Source: Paracoccus jeotgali (GTDB lineage Bacteria > Pseudomonadota > Alphaproteobacteria > Rhodobacterales > Rhodobacteraceae). Taken from it: a stretch of DNA of 64,000 nt. The position numbers and the translations under genes are program-made. Shown one piece after another: positions 13,653-25,374 of this stretch; position 1 is the first letter of the stretch; each line of letters begins with the position of its first letter. The stretch spans positions 1,158,501-1,222,500 of the forward strand of contig NZ_CP025583.1 of the NCBI RefSeq assembly GCF_002865605.1. The letters run 5' to 3'. The notes below the pieces were generated by a model that was not told the origin of the DNA, searched no databases, and was given only the letters and a program-made list of their open reading frames with translations.

Positions 13653-13891
13653 CCCCCGATCATCGCCGAAGGCCGTCACATCAGGCAAGCCCGCCCGTCT
13701 CGATAACGGCGATGTGAAGTGTTTACAAAGCCAGCACCGAATTAGTGAACAGATTTACAGAAAAATCATTTGAAAAAAATGGTTTGCGTTAAGGCAATGT
13801 CGTGTTTTACTCGGCGGCAGCATCAAAAGGGTGAAGGCGTCGCCTGTCGCGTCGCCATGCCGCCCGAAAGGCCATGAGGGGGAAATATTTC

Positions 13892-15847
<1,956 letters not shown>

Positions 15848-15941: not shown

Positions 15942-16199
15942 ATGAGTGACAAGCATTCAACCAACGCCTATTGGAGCGCGAATTTGCGGATCATCTGGGT
16001 CTGCATCGCGATATGGGCCTTTGTGTCCTATGGCTGCGCGATCATCTTTCGCCCGCTGCTGTCCGGCATCAGGCTGGGCGGCACCGATCTGGGATTCTGG
16101 TTCGCGCAGCAAGGCTCGATCCTCGTCTTCATCGTGCTGATCTTCTGGTATGCGTGGCGCATGAACCGGCTGGATCGCGAATTCGGAGTGGAGGAGTGA
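15942..16199 (+). CDS. DUF4212 small subunit of sodium/solute symporter
   Basis: An 85-residue protein with two membrane helices (IIWVCIAIWAFVSYGCAIIF and GSILVFIVLIFWYAW) and the start MSDKHSTNAYWSANLRI typical of DUF4212. These proteins are encoded just before SLC5-type symporters and are thought to form the small subunit. Its stop is one base from the start of the large subunit. The RWNR-like end MNRLDREFGVEE is cytoplasmic and acidic. Confidence 0.9.
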   Translation: MSDKHSTNAYWSANLRIIWVCIAIWAFVSYGCAIIFRPLLSGIRLGGTDLGFWFAQQGSILVFIVLIFWYAWRMNRLDREFGVEE

Positions 16200-16200
16200 T

Positions 16201-18012
16201 ATGAGCCAGTTTACCCTTAACCTGATCTTCATCGGGATCTCGTTCGCGATCTATATCGGCATCGCGATCTGGGCCCGCGCCGGGTCCACGGCCGAATTCT
16301 ATGCCGCGAACCGGGGCGTGCATCCGGTGATGAACGGCATGGCCACCGCCGCCGACTGGATGTCGGCCGCCAGCTTCATCTCGATGGCAGGTCTGATCGC
16401 CTTCACCGGCTATGACAACTCGACCTATCTGATGGGCTGGACCGGCGGCTATGTGCTGCTGGCGCTGCTGCTGGCGCCCTATCTGCGCAAGTTCGGCAAG
16501 TTCACCGTGCCCGAATTCATCGGCGACCGTTTCTATAGCCAGACCGCCCGCGTCATCGGCGTGGTCTGCCTGCTGATCATCTCGATCACCTATGTCATCG
16601 GGCAGATGACCGGGGTGGGCGTGACCTTCTCGCGCTATCTCGAAGTGTCGAACTCGACCGGGCTCTGGATTGGGGCGGCGCTGGTCTTCGCCTATGCGGT
16701 GCTGGGCGGCATGAAGGGCATCACCTATACGCAGGTGGCGCAATATGTCGTGCTGATCATCGCCTATACCATTCCCGCGGTCTTCATCTCGCTGAAGCTG
16801 ACCGGGCATGTGCTGCCGCAGACGGGCCTGTTCGGGACGCATGACCCCTCGGGCGTCAAGTTCCTGGCCAAGCTGGATCAGATCGTCACAGATCTGGGCT
16901 TCCGGTCCTATACCGGACACCACCAGTCGACGCTGGACATGGTGCTGTTCACCATGGCGCTGATGATCGGCACCGCGGGTCTGCCGCATGTCATCATCCG
17001 CTTCTTCACCGTGCCCAAGGTGTCGGACGCGCGGACCTCGGCCGGTTGGGCGCTGGTGTTCATCGCCCTGCTTTACACCGTGGCTCCGGCCGTGGGGGCG
17101 ATGTCGCGTCTGAACCTGACGAAGACCATGTGGCCCGGTGCGGCGACCTCGCAGACCTTCAGCGCGCCCGCGGTGTCGCTGGCCGAGATCGAGACCCGCG
17201 AGGATCTGCAATGGATGCGGAACTGGCAGATCACCGGCCTGCTGAACTGGGAGGACAAGAACGGCGACGGCCTGATCCAGTACTATAACGACAAGGTCGA
17301 GCCGAACGAGACGCTGGCGCAGGCGATCACCGACCAGAACCTGCAGGGCAACGAACTGACCACCGTCAACAACGACATCATGGTTCTGGCCAACCCCGAG
17401 ATCGCGAACCTGCCCGGCTGGGTCATTGCCATCGTGGCGGCGGGCGGTCTGGCGGCGGCGCTGTCGACGGCGGCGGGTCTGCTGCTGGCGATTTCCGGCG
17501 CGGTGTCGCATGACCTCGTCAAGGGCTGGTGGGCGCCGAATATCAGCGAAAAGGGCGAGCTGATGGCGGCGCGCGTGTCGATGGGGATCTCGATCCTGGT
17601 CGCCACCATCCTGGGCCTGAACCCGCCCGGCTTTGCCGCGCAGACCGTGGCGCTGGCCTTTGGTCTGGCCGCGTCCTCGATCTTCCCGGTGCTGATGATG
17701 GGCATCTTCTCGCGCCGCGTGAACCGGCAAGGGGCGATCTGGGGCATGATCGCGGGCATCACCTCGACGCTGATCTACATCTTCACCTACAAGGGCTGGT
17801 TCTTCATCTCGGGGACCAACATGCTGGACGACGTGTCGGCCAACTGGCTGTTCGGGATCTCGCCGGCCAGCTTCGGGACCATCGGTGCGCTGATCAACTT
17901 CGGCGTCGCCTATCTGGTGTCGAACGCGACCGAGGCCCCACCCGAGCATGTGGTCGAACTGGTCGAATCGATCCGCGTTCCGCGCGGTGCCGGTGTGGCC
18001 GTCGATCACTGA
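16201..18012 (+). CDS. SLC5-family sodium:solute symporter, acetate permease type (large subunit)
   Basis: A 603-residue polytopic membrane protein of the ActP/VC2705 group that likely imports acetate or other short monocarboxylates with sodium. It has about 13 hydrophobic segments. Family features include STAEFYAANRGVHPVMNGMA near the N-terminus, ADWMSAASFISMAG, and GLAAALSTAAGLLLAISGAVSHD. A hydrophilic insertion (about 335-385) between helices is characteristic of this subgroup. It follows the DUF4212 gene by one base with a GGAGG ribosome site, and it sits behind acs, which supports acetate as substrate. No histidine-kinase domain is fused to it, unlike CrbS-type proteins. Confidence 0.9.
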   Translation: MSQFTLNLIFIGISFAIYIGIAIWARAGSTAEFYAANRGVHPVMNGMATAADWMSAASFISMAGLIAFTGYDNSTYLMGWTGGYVLLALLLAPYLRKFGKFTVPEFIGDRFYSQTARVIGVVCLLIISITYVIGQMTGVGVTFSRYLEVSNSTGLWIGAALVFAYAVLGGMKGITYTQVAQYVVLIIAYTIPAVFISLKLTGHVLPQTGLFGTHDPSGVKFLAKLDQIVTDLGFRSYTGHHQSTLDMVLFTMALMIGTAGLPHVIIRFFTVPKVSDARTSAGWALVFIALLYTVAPAVGAMSRLNLTKTMWPGAATSQTFSAPAVSLAEIETREDLQWMRNWQITGLLNWEDKNGDGLIQYYNDKVEPNETLAQAITDQNLQGNELTTVNNDIMVLANPEIANLPGWVIAIVAAGGLAAALSTAAGLLLAISGAVSHDLVKGWWAPNISEKGELMAARVSMGISILVATILGLNPPGFAAQTVALAFGLAASSIFPVLMMGIFSRRVNRQGAIWGMIAGITSTLIYIFTYKGWFFISGTNMLDDVSANWLFGISPASFGTIGALINFGVAYLVSNATEAPPEHVVELVESIRVPRGAGVAVDH

Positions 18013-18137: not shown

Positions 18138-19964
18138 ATGCTGGCGATCAAGGACTTCATCTCGGGGATCCACCCCTACGACTCGCTGCCGGAGGACGAG
18201 CTGACCCGCGTGGCCGGCTTCTTCGCCCGCAGCCGCCGCCGCGAAGGCGAGGTGATCTATCGGCAGGGCCAGCAGCTCGACGGGCTGTTCCTGATCGAAA
18301 GCGGCTCGGTCGAGATTTCCGACAGCGAAGGCGAACTGGTCTCGGTGCTGGATCGCGGCAACAGCTTTGGCGAGCGCGGGCTGATCGCCGACGGGCGCGC
18401 GCAGGCCACGGCGCGGATGATGCGGGCGGGCACGCTGCTGCTGCTGCCAGCGCAGCACTTCGACCGGCTGCGGCGGGAAAGCCCGGCCTTCGGGCGCTAT
18501 TTCGACCGCGGGCAAAGCCGGCTGGACGCCCGCGCCATCCGCCGCGATTCCGGGCTGGCGACGCTGAAGGTCGCGCAGATGCTGAACCGGGAACCGATCG
18601 CCGCCCGCCCCGACACCCCGATTGCCCAGGCCGCGATGCTGATGCGCGATGCGGGGGTGTCATCGCTGGGCATCACGACCGAGGACGGGCATCTGCTGGG
18701 CGTCGTCACCATCCGCGACATGTCGGGCCGCGTGGTGGCCGAGGGGCTGGACCGGCAGGCGCCGGTCAGCACCATCATGACCGCCGATCCCGTCACCCTG
18801 CCGCCCGATGCCCTGGGCATCGACGTGCTGCACGGCATGATGGAGCGTCATGTCGGCCACCTGCCCATCGTCGATGGCGGGCGCTTCGTCGGCATGCTGA
18901 CCCAAACCGACCTGACGCGGCTGCAATCGGTGTCCAGCTCGGTCCTGATCCATGACGTGGCGGCCGCCGGAACCATCGCCGAGATGGCCGAGGTGACGGC
19001 GCGCATCCCGGAACTGCTGGTCAACCTGACCGCCGCCCATCAGCGTCACGAGGTGGTGACGCGGCTGATCACCGACATCGCCGACGCCGTCACCCGCCGC
19101 CTGCTGACCCTGGCCGAGGCGCAGTTCGGCCCGGCCCCGGCGGCCTGGCTGTGGGCCGCCTGCGGCAGTCAGGGGCGGCAGGAACAGACCGGCGTCAGCG
19201 ATCAGGACAATGTGCTGATCCTGGCCGACGACGCCGATCCGGACCATCCGTGGTTCGCGCAGGTGGCCCGTTTCGTCAGCGATGGGCTGAATGCCTGCGG
19301 CTATGTCTATTGCCCCGGCGACATGATGGCGACCAACCCGCGCTGGCGTCAGCCGCGCGGGGTCTGGCGCAGCTATTTCGACGGCTGGATCAACCGGCCC
19401 AGCCCCGAGGCGCAGATGCTGGCCTCGGTGATGTTCGACCTGCGCGCCATCGGCGGCGACGCCTCGCTGCTGGGGGGCTTGCAGACCCAGACGCTCGAGG
19501 CGGCGGCGCGGAACTCGATCTTTGTCGCGCATATGATCTCGAACTCGCTGAAGCATCAGCCGCCTCTGGGGATGATCCGGGGGTTCGCGACCATCCGCTC
19601 GGGGCCGCATCAGGGGCATATCGACATGAAGATGAACGGCGTTGTGCCGGTCGCCGATCTGGCGCGGGTCTATGCGCTGCGCGGGCGGCTGCCGGCGGTC
19701 AACACCCGCGCCCGGCTGGTCGCGGCCGAGGCGGCGGGCGTGATCTCGGGCAGCGGGGCGCGCGACCTGACGGCGGCCTATGACCTGATCCAGACCCTGC
19801 GGCTGCGCAATCAGGCGGCGCTGGTGCGGGCGGGGCGCAAGCCGGACAATCTGCTCGCGCCCTCGGACCTGCCGGATTTCGAACGCGGCCATCTGCGGGA
19901 CGCCTTTGTCGTCGTCCGCACCATGCAATCGGCCCTGGGCCACGGGAAAGGAGCGCTCGGATGA
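18138..19964 (+). CDS. cNMP-binding / CBS / DUF294 nucleotidyltransferase-like protein
   Basis: A cytoplasmic signalling protein of 608 residues. Domain order is a cyclic-nucleotide-binding fold (about 10-125, with GNSFGERGLI), a pair of CBS domains (about 145-265, with GVSSLGITTEDGHLLGVVT and VGHLPIVDGGRFVGMLT), a GlnD-like DUF294 nucleotidyltransferase with CGSQGRQEQTGVSDQDN, and the DUF294 C-terminal domain. The GS-x-GRxE-SDxD residues needed for nucleotidyl transfer are present. Proteins of this order are repeatedly found with SLC5/DUF4212 symporters. The target is unknown. The ATG follows AAAGGCAGGA, and the stop overlaps the next gene (ATGA). Confidence 0.88.
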   Translation: MLAIKDFISGIHPYDSLPEDELTRVAGFFARSRRREGEVIYRQGQQLDGLFLIESGSVEISDSEGELVSVLDRGNSFGERGLIADGRAQATARMMRAGTLLLLPAQHFDRLRRESPAFGRYFDRGQSRLDARAIRRDSGLATLKVAQMLNREPIAARPDTPIAQAAMLMRDAGVSSLGITTEDGHLLGVVTIRDMSGRVVAEGLDRQAPVSTIMTADPVTLPPDALGIDVLHGMMERHVGHLPIVDGGRFVGMLTQTDLTRLQSVSSSVLIHDVAAAGTIAEMAEVTARIPELLVNLTAAHQRHEVVTRLITDIADAVTRRLLTLAEAQFGPAPAAWLWAACGSQGRQEQTGVSDQDNVLILADDADPDHPWFAQVARFVSDGLNACGYVYCPGDMMATNPRWRQPRGVWRSYFDGWINRPSPEAQMLASVMFDLRAIGGDASLLGGLQTQTLEAAARNSIFVAHMISNSLKHQPPLGMIRGFATIRSGPHQGHIDMKMNGVVPVADLARVYALRGRLPAVNTRARLVAAEAAGVISGSGARDLTAAYDLIQTLRLRNQAALVRAGRKPDNLLAPSDLPDFERGHLRDAFVVVRTMQSALGHGKGALG

Positions 19965-20467
19965 CCGGTTTCAGCGGAATTGGCAGCGACATGATCGGCA
20001 CTTTGATTGTGGGCGCGGGCGCGGCGGCGCTGATGTATGCGCTGCTGCACCTGACCCGCAAGCTGGGCTATCCGCTGCCGAAATGGGCGCTGCCGGCGGG
20101 GATCGGGCTGGCCATGATCGGCTATGCGACCTGGAACGAATACAGCTGGGCCAGCCGCGTCAAGGCGCAGCTTCCCGACCGCGCGCAGGTGATCGCCGAG
20201 GGGCAGGCCCGCAGCGCGTTGCGGCCATGGACCTATCTGCACGCGCCGGTCGCGCGCATCGCGGTGATCGACCGCGCCGCGACCCGGCCCGACGGTCAGG
20301 GCCACCGCATCGCCCGCGTGCTGCTGGTCGAACGCTGGCGCAACACCGTGGCTGTGGAACAGGGCGTCGATTGCGAGGCGGGCCGGCTGCGCCCGCCCGA
20401 GGGGGAATGGCAGCGCGTGGCGGCCGACGATCCGGTCCTGACCACGATCTGCCGGGAAGGAGGCTGA
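19961..20467 (+). CDS. Small membrane protein of the acetate signalling cluster, unknown function
   Basis: A 168-residue protein I do not recognise by family name. It has two N-terminal hydrophobic helices (MIGTLIVGAGAAALMYALL and WALPAGIGLAMIGYATW) and a soluble C-terminal part containing a repeated-strand pattern (RIARVLLVERWRNTVAVEQGVDC) with two cysteines that could pair if it is periplasmic. Translation overlaps the DUF294 gene by ATGA, and the receiver gene follows after three bases, so it belongs to the same transcription unit. A sensing or anchoring role is a guess from context only. Confidence 0.72.
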   Translation: MTGFSGIGSDMIGTLIVGAGAAALMYALLHLTRKLGYPLPKWALPAGIGLAMIGYATWNEYSWASRVKAQLPDRAQVIAEGQARSALRPWTYLHAPVARIAVIDRAATRPDGQGHRIARVLLVERWRNTVAVEQGVDCEAGRLRPPEGEWQRVAADDPVLTTICREGG

Positions 20468-20470
20468 GAC

Positions 20471-20845
20471 ATGGCTCGTGTCATGGTGATCGAGGACGAG
20501 GACAATATCGCCATCGCGCTGGATTTCCTGCTGACCCGCGACGGGCATGACCATTCGCGCATGTCCACCGGCGCGGGCGCGGTCGAGGCGCTGCGCGCGG
20601 CGCGGCCCGATCTGGTGCTGCTGGATGTGATGCTGCCCGAGGTGTCGGGCTATCAGATCGTGCAGGAGTTGCGCGCCGACCCCGAGATGAAGGACGTCCG
20701 CATCCTGCTGATGACGGCGCGCGGTTCCGTAGTCGAGCGGCGCAAGGGGCTGGCGCTCGGCGCGGACGGTTTCATCGCCAAGCCCTTCGATCTGGCCGAA
20801 TTGCGCGCAGAAATGGCGCGGGTTCTGGACCAGGGCGGGTCATGA
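20471..20845 (+). CDS. Single-domain CheY-like response regulator
   Basis: A receiver domain without an output domain, 124 residues. All phosphorylation residues are present: an acidic pair in VIEDEDN, the acceptor Asp in LVLLDVMLPEVSG, the Thr in LLMTARG and the Lys in IAKPFD. A very good ribosome site (AAGGAGG) precedes the ATG, and the stop overlaps the next gene (ATGA). Its partner should be the overlapping membrane sensor/exonuclease protein, but that protein appears to lack kinase residues, so the phosphate source is unclear. Confidence 0.92.
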   Translation: MARVMVIEDEDNIAIALDFLLTRDGHDHSRMSTGAGAVEALRAARPDLVLLDVMLPEVSGYQIVQELRADPEMKDVRILLMTARGSVVERRKGLALGADGFIAKPFDLAELRAEMARVLDQGGS

Positions 20846-22839
20846 GGAGCTGGCCGCTTCGACTGCGCGTGTTCCTGATCTTCGTCGGGCTGACCGGCGG
20901 GATTCTGGCCGCCATCGGGGCGGCGCTGTGGGTGCTGCATGACCGGCTGATGGGCGCCGAGGCCCCGACCGAGGCAGTGGTGACCGAGGCGGTGGTGACC
21001 GATGCGCTGGCGCTGGCCGGGCTGATCGCGGGCATGGCCACGCTGGGGCTGTGCGCGATGGTCTGGTATCTTTTCGACATCAATATGGCCCGCCCGATCG
21101 AGACCTTGGCCGGCGGGCTGCTGACCGGCGCCCCCCCGGACGAGGATGAGGGCCGCTATCTGGCCGATCTCGCCCCCGCCGCGCGGGCCGCCGCGCAGGC
21201 GCGGATCGCTGCGCAGCAGGAATTGCAGGCCGCCGTCGCCAGCCATGCCGAAGGTATGACGCATGAGAAATCCATGCTGGAAAACATCCTGTCGGATATC
21301 GGCGCGGGCGCGATCCTGACCGACAGCGACGGGCGGGTGATGTTCTATAACGCCGCCGCCTCGCAGCTTTTGCCGGGTCTGGGGCTGGACCGGCCGGTGT
21401 CGCGCTTTCTGCGCGGCGACAGTCTGGCGGCGGCGCAGGCGCGCATCCGGGCGGGGGCGGGGGCCAGCGACATCTCGGTCACCGGGACCGAGGGGCAGCG
21501 GCTGACCGGGCGTATCCGTCCGCTGTCCGAAGAGTTCGGCGGCACCATCCTGATCCTGCGCCCGGCGCGGCGTGAGCTGGTCCCGCCGCGTCTGGCCATT
21601 CAGGCGCTGCGCAGCCATTCGGCGGCGCTGACGGCGCTGCTCGATCAGCTGTCGGACCCGGTCGCGCCGCGCATGATCGCGGCGCTGCGGGCCGCGGGCG
21701 CGGGGCTGAAACAGGCGATGCGCGATCTGGACGCCGGCCTCGACCCCGGTGCTCCGCGTCAGCGCCGGGTCGCGGCCGAGGAACTGGCGCGCGGGCTGAA
21801 CCTGCCGCTTGGCCGGGTCGAGCCGGTGACGCTGGCCGCCGATGGGTGGCAGATCGGCGGGCTGCTGGTGATGCTGGCGCAGCGGCTGGCGGGCACCGGG
21901 CGCAGCGTGACCGCGACCATCACCCGCGAACAGGACGGCAGCCCGGACGAGGCGATGGTGACGCTGGTCTGGCAGGGCGCACCCCTGCCCATGGACATGC
22001 TGGACGACTGGCTGAAGATCGCGCCCGATCCCGACATGCCCGACCTGACCGGCGCCGACATTCTGGACGCCCACGCCACCGGCATGTGGTCGGATGCCGA
22101 CCCCGATGATGCCGCGCGCGCCCGGCTGGTGCTGCCGCTGCGGATCTCGGCCGTGGCGCGGGCGGCGCGGGCCTCGGTCACTTACGATTTCGCGCTGTCG
22201 GGGCATGGGGCGGCGGATCTGCGGCCGCTCTCGACGCTGAATTGCGTGGTCTTCGACACCGAAACCACCGGGCTGTCGCTGTCCGACCGGATCGTGCAGA
22301 TCGCGGGGCTGCGCATCGCCGGCGGCAAGCTGACCGGCGAGCGGTTCGAGACGCTGGTCAATCCCGGCCGCGCCATCCCGCCCTCGTCCACCCGCATCCA
22401 CGGCGTCACCGACGAGATGGTGCGCGACGCCCCCGACATGGCGACCGCCCTGCGCCAGTTCCACGGCTTTGCCGAGGATGCCGTGCTGATCGCCCATAAC
22501 GCGCCCTTCGACATGGGCCTGCTGCGCGCGGCCGAGCCGGAAAGCGGGCTGCATTTCCCCAACCGGGTGATGGATACGGTGCTGCTGTCGGCGATGATCT
22601 GGGGGCAGGGCGCGGTCCACAGCCTTGACGCGCTGTGCGAACGCTTGGGGATCGAGCTGCCGCCCGATCTGCGCCACACCGCCATGGGCGACGCCGCCGC
22701 GACGGCCGAGGCCTATCTGCGGATGCTGCCGGCGCTGAAGGCCAAGGGCATCACCCGGTTCGAGGATGTGCTGACCCAGGCCCAGAAATACCGCCGCCTG
22801 CTGAGCGACGCGAACCTCGCCGCCGCCCATGGGAACTAG
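20842..22839 (+). CDS. Membrane sensor with decayed histidine-kinase core fused to DnaQ-like 3'-5' exonuclease
   Basis: A 665-residue fusion. Residues 8-33 and about 50-75 are membrane helices, followed by a HAMP-like linker and a PAS-like domain (LENILSDIGAGAILTDSDGRVMFYN). Residues 250-460 resemble a DHp plus GHKL arrangement, but no N-box asparagine, DxGxG or GxGxG is visible, so ATP binding seems lost. The C-terminus (about 467-640) is a DEDDh exonuclease with Asp472 and Glu474 in FDTETTG, Asp557 in HNAPFD, His612 and Asp617 in HTAMGD, so all catalytic residues are kept. It is translationally coupled to the receiver. Annotation as DNA polymerase III epsilon would be misleading. Confidence 0.85.
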   Translation: MRSWPLRLRVFLIFVGLTGGILAAIGAALWVLHDRLMGAEAPTEAVVTEAVVTDALALAGLIAGMATLGLCAMVWYLFDINMARPIETLAGGLLTGAPPDEDEGRYLADLAPAARAAAQARIAAQQELQAAVASHAEGMTHEKSMLENILSDIGAGAILTDSDGRVMFYNAAASQLLPGLGLDRPVSRFLRGDSLAAAQARIRAGAGASDISVTGTEGQRLTGRIRPLSEEFGGTILILRPARRELVPPRLAIQALRSHSAALTALLDQLSDPVAPRMIAALRAAGAGLKQAMRDLDAGLDPGAPRQRRVAAEELARGLNLPLGRVEPVTLAADGWQIGGLLVMLAQRLAGTGRSVTATITREQDGSPDEAMVTLVWQGAPLPMDMLDDWLKIAPDPDMPDLTGADILDAHATGMWSDADPDDAARARLVLPLRISAVARAARASVTYDFALSGHGAADLRPLSTLNCVVFDTETTGLSLSDRIVQIAGLRIAGGKLTGERFETLVNPGRAIPPSSTRIHGVTDEMVRDAPDMATALRQFHGFAEDAVLIAHNAPFDMGLLRAAEPESGLHFPNRVMDTVLLSAMIWGQGAVHSLDALCERLGIELPPDLRHTAMGDAAATAEAYLRMLPALKAKGITRFEDVLTQAQKYRRLLSDANLAAAHGN

Positions 22840-22848
22840 GCGCGGCCC

Positions 22849-23670
22849 TTAGCGGCCCAGCTTGGCGTGAACCTCGTCTAGATCGACCTCGCCCTTGGGC
22901 AGCTTGTTGTCGGGGTCGTCGAAATCGTAGCGGAACAGCTGGAAATCCTTTTTATAGATCTCCCAGATCAGATGCCGTGACAGATCGTCGAAATACTCGC
23001 TGACCTTGTGGGCGCGCTTAGGGCCGTGGCCTTCGGATTCGTTGAAGCGCGGCACCTGCGACACGTCGATCCGGTGCGGCGTCTCGGCCGCGTCCAGCAC
23101 CCGCTGCATGCCTTCGTTGAACTTCTCGGTAAAGAAGATCTGGTCGTAGCGCCCGCCATTGACGATGAAGGTCGAGATATGGCCCGACATGGCCGACCAG
23201 TGGATGTCCGGCTCCATCGGGCGGCGCCAGCGGATGGTGTCGCGGGCGAACAGCAGAAAGCGGCGAAAGCTGCGGATCTGGTCAAAGTCGAAATCATCCT
23301 CGGGGCTGCCGACCTCGACGCCGTAGCGCTGCGCGAGCTGCGGCACCAGATTGCCGCGATAGCGTTTGCCGTTGCGCTGGATGCCGGCGATCTTGTCGAA
23401 AAACGACGACAGGATGCGGGCGTAAGGGTTGCGCACGCAAGTAAAGGTGACGCCGCGCCGGTCGCGCACCGCCGATTCGATCAGCGGCTGGCTGTCATCC
23501 TGCGCCCATTTGTGCAGCCCTTCGCGCGAATCGTGGATATCGCCGTCGTAATAGCGCCCGTGATCCGAATGAAACATGATCTGCCCGATCGTCGAGCAGG
23601 CGCATTTCGGCACCACCCGATAGACGAGGCTCTCGCTTTCCGTCATCCAAGTTCCCGGAAATCCCATCAT
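22849..23670 (-). CDS. Sulfotransferase family 2 protein
   Basis: A carbohydrate-type sulfotransferase that would use PAPS. The 5'-phosphosulfate loop is VPKCACSTIGQIMF near residue 22, and the 3'-phosphate site is FTCVRNPYARILSSFFDKI near residue 80. The length is about 273 residues. Two adjacent ATG codons at 23670 and 23667 follow GAGGG; longer starts would add an unrelated N-terminus. It is convergent with the exonuclease gene (9-base gap) and divergent from the glycosyltransferase gene, suggesting a shared role in decorating a surface glycan. Confidence 0.82.
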   Translation of the reverse strand: MMGFPGTWMTESESLVYRVVPKCACSTIGQIMFHSDHGRYYDGDIHDSREGLHKWAQDDSQPLIESAVRDRRGVTFTCVRNPYARILSSFFDKIAGIQRNGKRYRGNLVPQLAQRYGVEVGSPEDDFDFDQIRSFRRFLLFARDTIRWRRPMEPDIHWSAMSGHISTFIVNGGRYDQIFFTEKFNEGMQRVLDAAETPHRIDVSQVPRFNESEGHGPKRAHKVSEYFDDLSRHLIWEIYKKDFQLFRYDFDDPDNKLPKGEVDLDEVHAKLGR

Positions 23671-23796
23671 CGCCCTCGTCTGAAAAGCCCGCCCGCTTGC
23701 GGCACCCATTAAAATCGTTACAGACAAAAGCAGATCGGCGCGGCGGATTCAATCGGTTGCGCCAGCGGAAATGAGTATCGAGGGCGGCAAGACGAC

Positions 23797-25374
23797 ATGG
23801 CCAGGATCGCCTTTATCCTTCTTGCGCACAAGGACCCGAAAAGCGTGATCGCTCAGGCCAAGCGCATGGGGGCGGGCGGCGATTGCGTGGCGATCCATTA
23901 CGATGCCAGCGCGCCGCAGGCGGAATACGACCAGATCCAGCAGGCGCTGAAGGACGACCCCGCCGTCGCGCTGGCCAGCCGGCGGCACCGCTGCGGCTGG
24001 GGCGAATGGTCGCTGGTCGCCGCCACGCTGGAGGCCGTGCGCGCCGCCGTCCGCGCCTTTCCGGCCGCCACGCATTTCTACATGCTGTCGGGCGATTGCC
24101 GGCCGGTGAAATCGGCGGAATACGCGCATGCGTTTCTGGATGCCGAGGATGTCGATTACATCGAAAGTTTCGACTATTTCGCCTCGGACTGGATCAAGAC
24201 CGGGATGAAAGAGGACCGGCTGATCTATCGTTTCTGGTTCAACGAACGCAGCCAGCCCCGGCGATTCTATGCGCTTTACGATTTTCAGCGCCGCTTCGGG
24301 CTGACGCGCCGGATTCCCGCCGATCTGGAAATGATGATCGGCAGCCAGTGGTGGTGCCTGCGCCGCGACACGATCGAAAAGCTGCTGGAATTCTGCGACA
24401 GCCGCCCCGACGTCATGCGCTTTTTCCGCACCACATGGATCCCCGACGAGACGTTTTTTCAGACCCTCGTCCGCCACCTTGTCCCGCGCAGCCAGATCCG
24501 GTCGCGCACGCTGACCTTCCTGATCTTCACCGATTACGGGATGCCGGTCGTTTTCTGCAACGATCACCACGACATGCTGCTGCGTCAGGATTACCTGTTC
24601 GCCCGCAAGATCAGCCCCGAGGCCCGCGAGCTGAAGGAGCGGCTGGACGCGCTGTGGATGGCGCGCGATCAGCATTTCTCGATCTCGGACGAGGGCAAGT
24701 CCCTGTTCCGCTTCCAGACCGGGCGCGGGCGGGTCGGGCGGCGGTTCGCGCCGCGCTTCTGGGAGGCCGATGGTTCGGTCGGGCGGCACCGCAACCTGCT
24801 GATCGTGGTGGCGAAGAAATGGCACATCGCCAAGCGCCTGACGCAGGCGATCCGCGAACAGACCGACATTCCGGCGGTCGATTACCTGTTCAACGAGATG
24901 GACGCCAAGCTGCCCGATCTGGGCGGGGTGGAAAACACCGTGGCCAAGCGCGAGCGGCACCGGCGGGCGCTGATCCGCCTGCTGATGGACGAGTTCGGCG
25001 ACGAGCGTATGGTGATCTGCATCGACCCCTCGGCGCTCGACCTGATCCGCGACTTCGTCAGCGACAAGAACCAGACCCGCATCCTGTTCATCGATTCGCG
25101 GTTCGACGATGACTACCTGCGCGGCCATGCGCTGCGGGTCGGGCTGGCCGATTCCTCGACGCCGGAAAACGTGCTGCGCCGCCTGTTGCCCGCGCTGCGC
25201 GGCGATCTGCTGCACGAGGCCGAGCGTTTGCGCGACATGGAGTTCGATGATTACTTCGAGATCGCCCAGACCGCCGCCCCCGACCGGATCGGCACCGTGC
25301 TCGGCCGGTTTCTGGACGTCGAACCCGCCCGCGCCCGCGCCATTGCGACCGCCGCCGATCTTTTTGCAGACTGA
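23797..25374 (+). CDS. Core-2/I-branching-like glycosyltransferase with DUF5928 C-terminus
   Basis: A 525-residue protein. Residues 1-250 match GT14 beta-1,6-N-acetylglucosaminyltransferases: AFILLAHKDP start, IHYDAS, YMLSGDCRPVKS and the acceptor-side IGSQWWCLRRDTIEKLLEF plus WIPDETFFQTL. From about 320 onward a separate alpha/beta domain with NLLIVVAKKWHIAKRL and MVICIDPSALDLIRDFV corresponds to DUF5928, of unknown function but with the look of a nucleotide-binding or sulfotransferase-related fold. No membrane segments. The divergent sulfotransferase next door suggests a sulfated polysaccharide or glycoprotein. Confidence 0.82.
   Translation: MARIAFILLAHKDPKSVIAQAKRMGAGGDCVAIHYDASAPQAEYDQIQQALKDDPAVALASRRHRCGWGEWSLVAATLEAVRAAVRAFPAATHFYMLSGDCRPVKSAEYAHAFLDAEDVDYIESFDYFASDWIKTGMKEDRLIYRFWFNERSQPRRFYALYDFQRRFGLTRRIPADLEMMIGSQWWCLRRDTIEKLLEFCDSRPDVMRFFRTTWIPDETFFQTLVRHLVPRSQIRSRTLTFLIFTDYGMPVVFCNDHHDMLLRQDYLFARKISPEARELKERLDALWMARDQHFSISDEGKSLFRFQTGRGRVGRRFAPRFWEADGSVGRHRNLLIVVAKKWHIAKRLTQAIREQTDIPAVDYLFNEMDAKLPDLGGVENTVAKRERHRRALIRLLMDEFGDERMVICIDPSALDLIRDFVSDKNQTRILFIDSRFDDDYLRGHALRVGLADSSTPENVLRRLLPALRGDLLHEAERLRDMEFDDYFEIAQTAAPDRIGTVLGRFLDVEPARARAIATAADLFAD

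Follow-up and report, generated by a model that had tools for sequence, protein, structure and literature searches.

In the 64,000 nucleotides of Paracoccus jeotgali DNA that we analyzed (the window), a gene at the end of an acetate operon was predicted from the sequence alone to encode a membrane-bound remnant of a histidine kinase fused to an active DnaQ-like exonuclease. This raises the question of what a kinase without its catalytic residues could do for a nuclease, and whether such a protein would still take part in two-component signaling.

A pseudokinase-exonuclease in an acetate operon

The gene is the end of a tight, one-strand run of seven genes that starts with acetyl-CoA synthetase and includes a symporter (Table 1), which bears out the proposed link to acetate. 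The gene just upstream encodes a small response regulator, which the original prediction had missed; the two genes overlap, as the regulator's stop codon ends at 20845 and the pseudokinase-exonuclease gene starts at 20842. Response_reg is the only Pfam domain in the regulator, so it has no output domain, and its acidic pocket is present. The 168-amino-acid protein encoded before the regulator has no significant match in Pfam. Homologs of this protein are also found near DUF294 in other alphaproteobacteria (L124, L126, and L138). Directly downstream of the operon is a sulfotransferase gene, followed by a divergently-read glycosyltransferase gene.

Table 1. Features of the operon, the pseudokinase-exonuclease, and the downstream genes, in window coordinates
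Feature	Position	Strand	Evidence
Acetyl-CoA synthetase (TIGR02188)	13874..15847	+	Domain/family match
Symporter small subunit (DUF4212, TIGR03647)	15942..16199	+	Domain/family match
VC_2705-family sodium/solute symporter (TIGR03648)	16201..18012	+	Family match
DUF294 protein: cNMP-binding, two CBS, nucleotidyltransferase with GSxGRxE..DxD, DUF294_C	18150..19964	+	Pfam, motif
168-aa protein, two hydrophobic stretches	19961..20467	+	ORF; kept in relatives' operons
Single-domain response regulator, 124 aa; D9, D52, T82, K104 present	20471..20845	+	Pfam, alignment
Pseudokinase-exonuclease, membrane protein, 665 aa	20842..22839	+	ORF, translation, Pfam, structure model
Two membrane helices (~residues 6-38 and 53-78), very short intervening loop	20857..21075	+	Model; hydrophobic stretches read by eye
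PAS-like domain (~residues 145-241)	21274..21564	+	Sub-threshold Pfam PAS, matches in family members, model
Histidine pseudokinase core: DHp-like hairpin (249-299), CA-like domain (309-435)	21577..22146	+	Profiles versus PDB, core model, fold comparison, motif counts
Degenerate H-box: Gln254 replaces the phospho-accepting His; Arg257 (= DivL Arg553) kept	21601..21612	+	Profile alignment, motif counts
Trp377-x-Gly379 where the G1-box has Asp-x-Gly	21970..21978	+	Profile alignment, motif counts
DEDDh exonuclease domain (469-625): D472, E474, D557, H612, D617	22246..22716	+	Pfam, residue check
Sulfotransferase	22849-23727	-	
Core-2/I-branching-type glycosyltransferase with DUF5928	23797-25374	+	

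Among the matches listed, the closest named relative of the protein is from Paracoccus and is 68% identical to it. Pfam's RNase_T matches residues 469-625 (E = 3.6e-33), and the five DEDDh residues that had been pointed out are all present. The membrane position also stands, as two helices are seen both in the structure model and as hydrophobic stretches. Of the HAMP/PAS region that was proposed to follow the helices, we retain only the PAS part: there are sub-threshold Pfam matches to PAS around residues 145-196, family members match PAS as well, and the model agrees, while HAMP had no support from Pfam in the 12 family members that we scanned.

The structure prediction that had been proposed as a check for a GHKL fold came out in its favor: the core model, when compared to known folds, contains a GHKL-type CA domain, and profile alignment to PDB entries points to the same fold. 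The profile alignments to ZraS and DivL span the DHp hairpin, which the core model renders as two helices with moderate confidence (the fold comparison covered CA, not DHp). HisKA was matched in 6 of 47 family members, with a best E value of 2.5e-4.

To count residues, we used two sets of proteins. The first set (63 proteins with a kinase-type core and 71 without) includes the loci from a family search as well as loci from further searches, DUF294 loci among them. The named set, made up of the 80 best among 554 confirmed stretches, has 53 cores, four of which are identical to cores in the first set; two of its loci are partial.

The phospho-accepting histidine of the H-box was found in none of the 63 cores of the first set and in none of the 53 named cores. 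Asp or Glu is at this position in most members, including 43 of 51 cores with a linked regulator (see below), and the window protein has Gln254; Tyr was not seen here among the cores that we counted. The window's H-box is more eroded than most, with His259 where the majority have Pro. The column of the G1 Asp contains Asp in 0 of 47 members and Trp in 40 of 47, and it is Trp in 52 of the 53 cores from the best 80 of 554 stretches. The N-box column contains Asn in just 1 of 47 members, and Asn is not among the commonest residues listed for the neighboring columns. Other positions are conserved: the equivalent of Gly379 is kept in 61/63 cores and in 52/53 named cores, and the equivalent of His411 is kept in 63/63 and 51/53 (named cores are again from the best 80 of 554).

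Because histidine is absent from every H-box examined while the equivalents of Gly379 and His411 and the fold are kept, we rejected the idea that this is a recently broken kinase gene. Also, no active-kinase version of this fusion was found among these 63 + 53 cores (the latter from the best 80 of 554). The kinase remnant that was originally predicted is a member of a conserved family of pseudokinases.

Co-inheritance of the core and the regulator

Our family search found matches in 118 of 248 genomes. Their neighborhoods are of two kinds: some encode long, core-bearing proteins, and others encode proteins, mostly of ~470 amino acids, that join the membrane part, the PAS domain, and the exonuclease directly. 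We scored the adjacent regulator in 109 of the 118 genomes (59 + 40 + 9 short loci + the window) and left out nine with weak exonuclease-only, split, or partial matches (G310, G343, G346, G449, G488, G496, G511, G519, and G532).

A small regulator adjoins 51 of the 63 core proteins (42/54 + 9/9, with domain-based starts) and 0 of the 71 core-less proteins (0/31 + 0/40; for one of these loci, L273, the upstream sequence is just 930 bases). In the named set, which partly overlaps the first set and is the best 80 of 554 stretches, the regulator adjoins 41 of 53 core proteins and 0 of 25 core-less proteins. This leaves 12 cores without an adjacent regulator in each set. Among the 38 adjacent regulators (of 51) whose residues we counted, the phospho-accepting aspartate (D52) and the lysine (K104) are present in all 38, and the switch Thr/Ser is present in 37.

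The cores that lack the regulator have changed in the part that would bind it. The DHp hairpin is 45-63 amino acids in all 51 regulator-linked cores, but it is 13-41 amino acids in 9 of the 12 regulator-less cores; the other three (L084, L093, and L212) have a near full-length hairpin of 54-63 amino acids. In contrast, the CA domain is nearly unchanged in length, with medians of 154 without the regulator and 157 with it. The equivalent of DivL's Arg553 is Arg in 50/51 regulator-linked cores versus 2/12 regulator-less cores, and the equivalent of Trp416 is kept in 51/51 versus 1/12, in counts that ignore kinship. In DivL, the R553A substitution is reported to disrupt binding to phosphorylated DivK, and DivL orthologs from organisms without DivK are described as often lacking DHp-CA (PMC4211667). 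The erosion of DHp without the regulator repeats the DivL/DivK pattern in what looks like a separate system. Among the neighborhoods from the family search, 21 of the core-less relatives retain the same operon.

The co-inheritance of core and regulator is clustered on the tree, and tests that account for kinship lack power. In a tree of 85 proteins that was built without the core, core presence changes at least 5 times and regulator presence at least 8 times. In this tree, 23 of the 31 core-less rows nest within a set of 63 rows (support 87) whose other members all bear the core; because the tree is midpoint-rooted, it does not distinguish gain of the core from its loss. Independent-pair tests yielded 3-4 pairs on supported branches, in which the second trait changed in the expected direction in 2-3 on average, in the opposite direction in 0 to 0.1, and not at all in 1-2; with so few pairs, significance is out of reach, since the sign test takes six or more independent informative pairs. 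Also, a single clade accounts for 7 of the 12 regulator-less cores, so the Fisher and rank values, which ignore kinship, should not be read as the strength of the evidence.

Judging by record names among the best 80 of 554 stretches, the core-bearing lineage includes alpha-, beta-, and gammaproteobacteria and Magnetococcales. Rhodobacter capsulatus (L308) is among the named loci that have both the core and a regulator next to it. One more record in this set (L377), a metagenome-assembled sequence whose name, Balneolia, would place it outside the Proteobacteria, has a core-bearing homolog beside a regulator gene, which may reflect transfer or mis-binning.

Gene order points to an adjacent transporter-fused (SSF) kinase as the likely kinase for the regulator in some relatives. 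We scanned the neighbors of 54 of the 63 first-set cores, and in 9 of these 54 loci (L092, L163, L208, L209, L210, L213, L215, L216, and L217), a same-strand transporter-fused kinase with an intact H-box (HELRTP or HEFRTP) is encoded beside the regulator and the pseudokinase-exonuclease. The kinase from L163 contains HisKA and HATPase_c, according to Pfam, and the one from L213 extends past the end of the contig; L212 has a kinase on the opposite strand. In the best 80 of 554 stretches, a transporter-fused kinase lies within 500 bases of the core in 8 of 53 loci, including records named Roseomonas, Azospirillum, and Zoogloea; in one of these eight (L328), the kinase is beside the core and there is no adjacent regulator. 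The operon in the window has a separate symporter, and the genome's one transporter-fused kinase is ~0.97 Mb away: it is a 916-amino-acid frame that matches PF00474, and its H, N, and G boxes appear to be intact when read by eye. SSF kinases are full length in 55 of the 58 genomes that we searched, and they are present with the core-less form as well as with the core-bearing form, so they lack specificity for this circuit and their link to it is suggestive only.

In another genome from the window's genus (G311), the sole match above the threshold of the family search is L092, a divergent version of the system in which the transporter-fused kinase, the regulator, and the pseudokinase-exonuclease are encoded consecutively.

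The exonuclease and DUF294

The exonuclease domain belongs to a group that is repeatedly encoded with DUF294. We picked 60 DUF294 loci, for score and diversity, from over 150 places. Outside of the pseudokinase family, DUF294 is directly followed by an exonuclease gene in 47 of 56 loci, and these exonucleases are mostly stand-alone proteins of ~230 amino acids. (In L117, the best-scoring exonuclease is a different gene, which is upstream.) In 11 loci (L227, L228, L230-L237, and L239), the exonuclease and DUF294 form a single polypeptide of 705-776 amino acids, and in the one fusion that we scanned with Pfam (L227), two CBS stretches lie between them. Gene fusions usually indicate a joint function. 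In the window, the two domains are encoded in one gene run, two genes apart.

These results do not support the statement that similar long DnaQ proteins occur near acetate symporters in gammaproteobacteria. The usual partner of DUF294 is a separate, short exonuclease; we found one gammaproteobacterial record of ~700 amino acids that is core-bearing (L328), and the exonuclease-CBS-DUF294 fusions are a different protein. Exonuclease proteins of ~700 amino acids from outside the family are thus of two kinds, either core-bearing (L163, L207-L217, and L328) or exonuclease-CBS-DUF294 (the 11 loci). We judged the long "DnaQ" frames in L125, L139, and L142 to be over-extended frames that end in a stand-alone exonuclease. 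The DUF4212/symporter pair is also present in 5 of the 11 fusion loci.

Both domains usually retain their active sites. The D-E-D-H-D set is intact in all 96 of the exonucleases that are fused to a membrane part or to DUF294, and the window's DUF294 protein carries the active-site motif, as do 130 of 159 DUF294 ORFs (another 22 have a relaxed form, and 7 are unmatched). As a separate observation, among the stand-alone exonucleases from DUF294 loci (such as L118, L121, L127, and L148), 26 of 48 have Glu for the third metal-binding Asp, in an HYxxIE-like motif, versus 0 of 96 fused forms.

Since this exonuclease family partners with DUF294, and is fused to it in 11 loci, the exonuclease may trim what DUF294 adds. 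One protein of Pseudomonas fluorescens, which combines cAMP-binding, CBS, and nucleotidyltransferase domains, has been predicted to nucleotidylate proteins (PMC5715377), and DUF294_C has been grouped with the C-terminal domains of GlnD and GlnE (PMC3710099). In P. putida, the pair PP_0354/PP_0353 is reported to be a target of MxtR/ErdR; in the account of the mutants given there, deletion of PP_0353 slowed growth on pyruvate, not on acetate, and deletion of PP_0354 had no phenotype on either (PMC9927547). These phenotypes do not favor an obligate pair.

Proposed mechanism and alternatives

We consider it slightly better than an even chance that this is a DivL-like module, in which a phosphorylated regulator is read by the membrane pseudokinase, which gates an attached exonuclease that works with DUF294. 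The pseudokinase-exonuclease would then receive a two-component signal rather than send one. The small regulator would be phosphorylated by a histidine kinase encoded elsewhere, and the pseudokinase core would dock the phosphorylated regulator on its DHp hairpin, as DivL docks phosphorylated DivK; we infer this step from the co-inheritance and the docking residue. Together with the PAS domain and the membrane part, the core might then rearrange the C-terminal exonuclease via the shared dimer, and so switch or position it. In the least certain step, the exonuclease could trim 3' nucleotides that DUF294 had added to RNA or to another acceptor. In the relatives that have no core, control would come from the PAS domain and the membrane part alone. 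The original prediction, that a membrane signal controls the nuclease, thus survives in part: nuclease control is retained, and the input is more likely to be the phosphorylated regulator along with the PAS domain and membrane part than the membrane alone.

The main alternative is that the core is just a scaffold for dimerization and membrane anchoring, that the exonuclease constitutively trims or degrades RNA near the membrane, and that control is exerted at the level of operon expression (through MxtR/ErdR in pseudomonads). We view this as unlikely. It would fit with the 71 of 134 membrane-PAS-exonucleases in the first set that do without the core, including those that retain the operon, and also with the P. 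putida operon, for which the authors speculate about mRNA decay (PMC9927547). But it is mainly the proteins with a linked regulator gene that retain the DHp hairpin and the Arg553 equivalent, and a plain scaffold would need neither. The core could instead be a phosphatase for the regulator, with an acidic residue in place of the histidine and with the exonuclease as a passenger or a second output. The DHp domains of many kinases have phosphatase activity, and the prevalence of Asp or Glu in the regulator-linked cores is as expected, but the window protein has Gln at this position and the fusion to a conserved exonuclease would be unexplained, so we doubt this explanation strongly.

We also give little credence to the degradation of a small nucleotide messenger, such as pGpG or another short oligonucleotide, which the original prediction had raised. 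DEDDh folds include oligoribonuclease, and the DUF294 partner carries a cNMP-binding domain. However, the best matches of the exonuclease are to PolC and DnaQ, both by sequence and by fold, and no oligoribonuclease was among the matches listed from either search; also, no family of cyclic-dinucleotide enzymes was among the Pfam and TIGR matches listed for the seven genes of the operon. That the nearest solved relatives are the proofreading domains of PolC and DnaQ could indicate a membrane-tethered exonuclease for replication or repair, but this is very improbable. The protein scores 113.2 bits against the model for the epsilon subunit of Pol III (TIGR01406), which is far under the curated cut-off of 222.7 bits; another exonuclease-domain match is found elsewhere in the genome; and the relatives are in acetate operons. 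Given the score and the operon context, we rejected a role as a replication subunit, which agrees with the original suggestion that the substrate is not replication DNA.

Returning to the regulator-reading module, its best precedent is DivL from Caulobacter. Both proteins combine PAS with a histidine kinase-type core that lacks the phospho-accepting histidine, both have a single-domain regulator as a partner (a partnership that is suggested here by gene linkage), and both keep the docking arginine and have relatives that lost DHp-CA or DHp where the regulator is absent. They differ in that DivL has Tyr at the histidine position (or Ala, in one described ortholog), instead of mostly Asp/Glu, and DivL is reported to keep the other kinase boxes (PMC4211667), while here the G1 Asp is mostly Trp. 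Also, DivL acts on the kinase CckA, whereas the likely output here is the covalently-joined exonuclease in an acetate operon. PP_0353/PP_0354 resembles our system in that an RNase_T-type exonuclease is encoded with a DUF294-type protein, and beside actP in some pseudomonads, but the stand-alone partners in our loci (~230 amino acids) lack the membrane part, the pseudokinase, and a linked regulator. CrbS/CrbR (MxtR/ErdR) is another case of transporter-linked two-component control of acetate genes, and a transporter-fused kinase adjoins our pair in several relatives; but CrbS is reported to be an active hybrid kinase that acts via a transcription activator (PMC5715377), instead of a dead kinase with an enzyme. 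The DEDDh exonucleases DnaQ and PolC share the fold and the catalytic residues, but not the sensor-like membrane N-terminus, the pseudokinase, or the operon context, and the score is below the Pol III epsilon cut-off.

Precedents exist for a dead kinase that reads a phosphorylated regulator (DivL), for DEDDh exonucleases, and for operons that pair them with DUF294-type proteins. Among the open-licence papers listed, we did not find a description of this family of membrane pseudokinase-exonucleases, nor did we see this combination of parts, its residue signature, the attachment of the exonuclease, or the covariation with the regulator.

To our knowledge, DivL is foremost among the small number of histidine pseudokinases studied so far that read a phosphorylated regulator. 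More cases have been called for (PMC4211667). The family that we describe looks like a second, widespread lineage of regulator-reading pseudokinases, with another residue signature and with an enzyme attached, and therefore the generality of reversed two-component signaling as a design becomes testable. The dedicated exonuclease, which is sometimes part of the same polypeptide, also provides a way to study DUF294, a widespread protein from acetate operons that is predicted to be a nucleotidyltransferase. We think it improbable that the entire circuit is as follows: a transporter-fused kinase senses acetate-type solutes and phosphorylates the regulator, which acts through the pseudokinase so that the exonuclease erases the 3' nucleotides written by DUF294. 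If this were true, then two-component signaling would control a reversible nucleotide modification instead of transcription.
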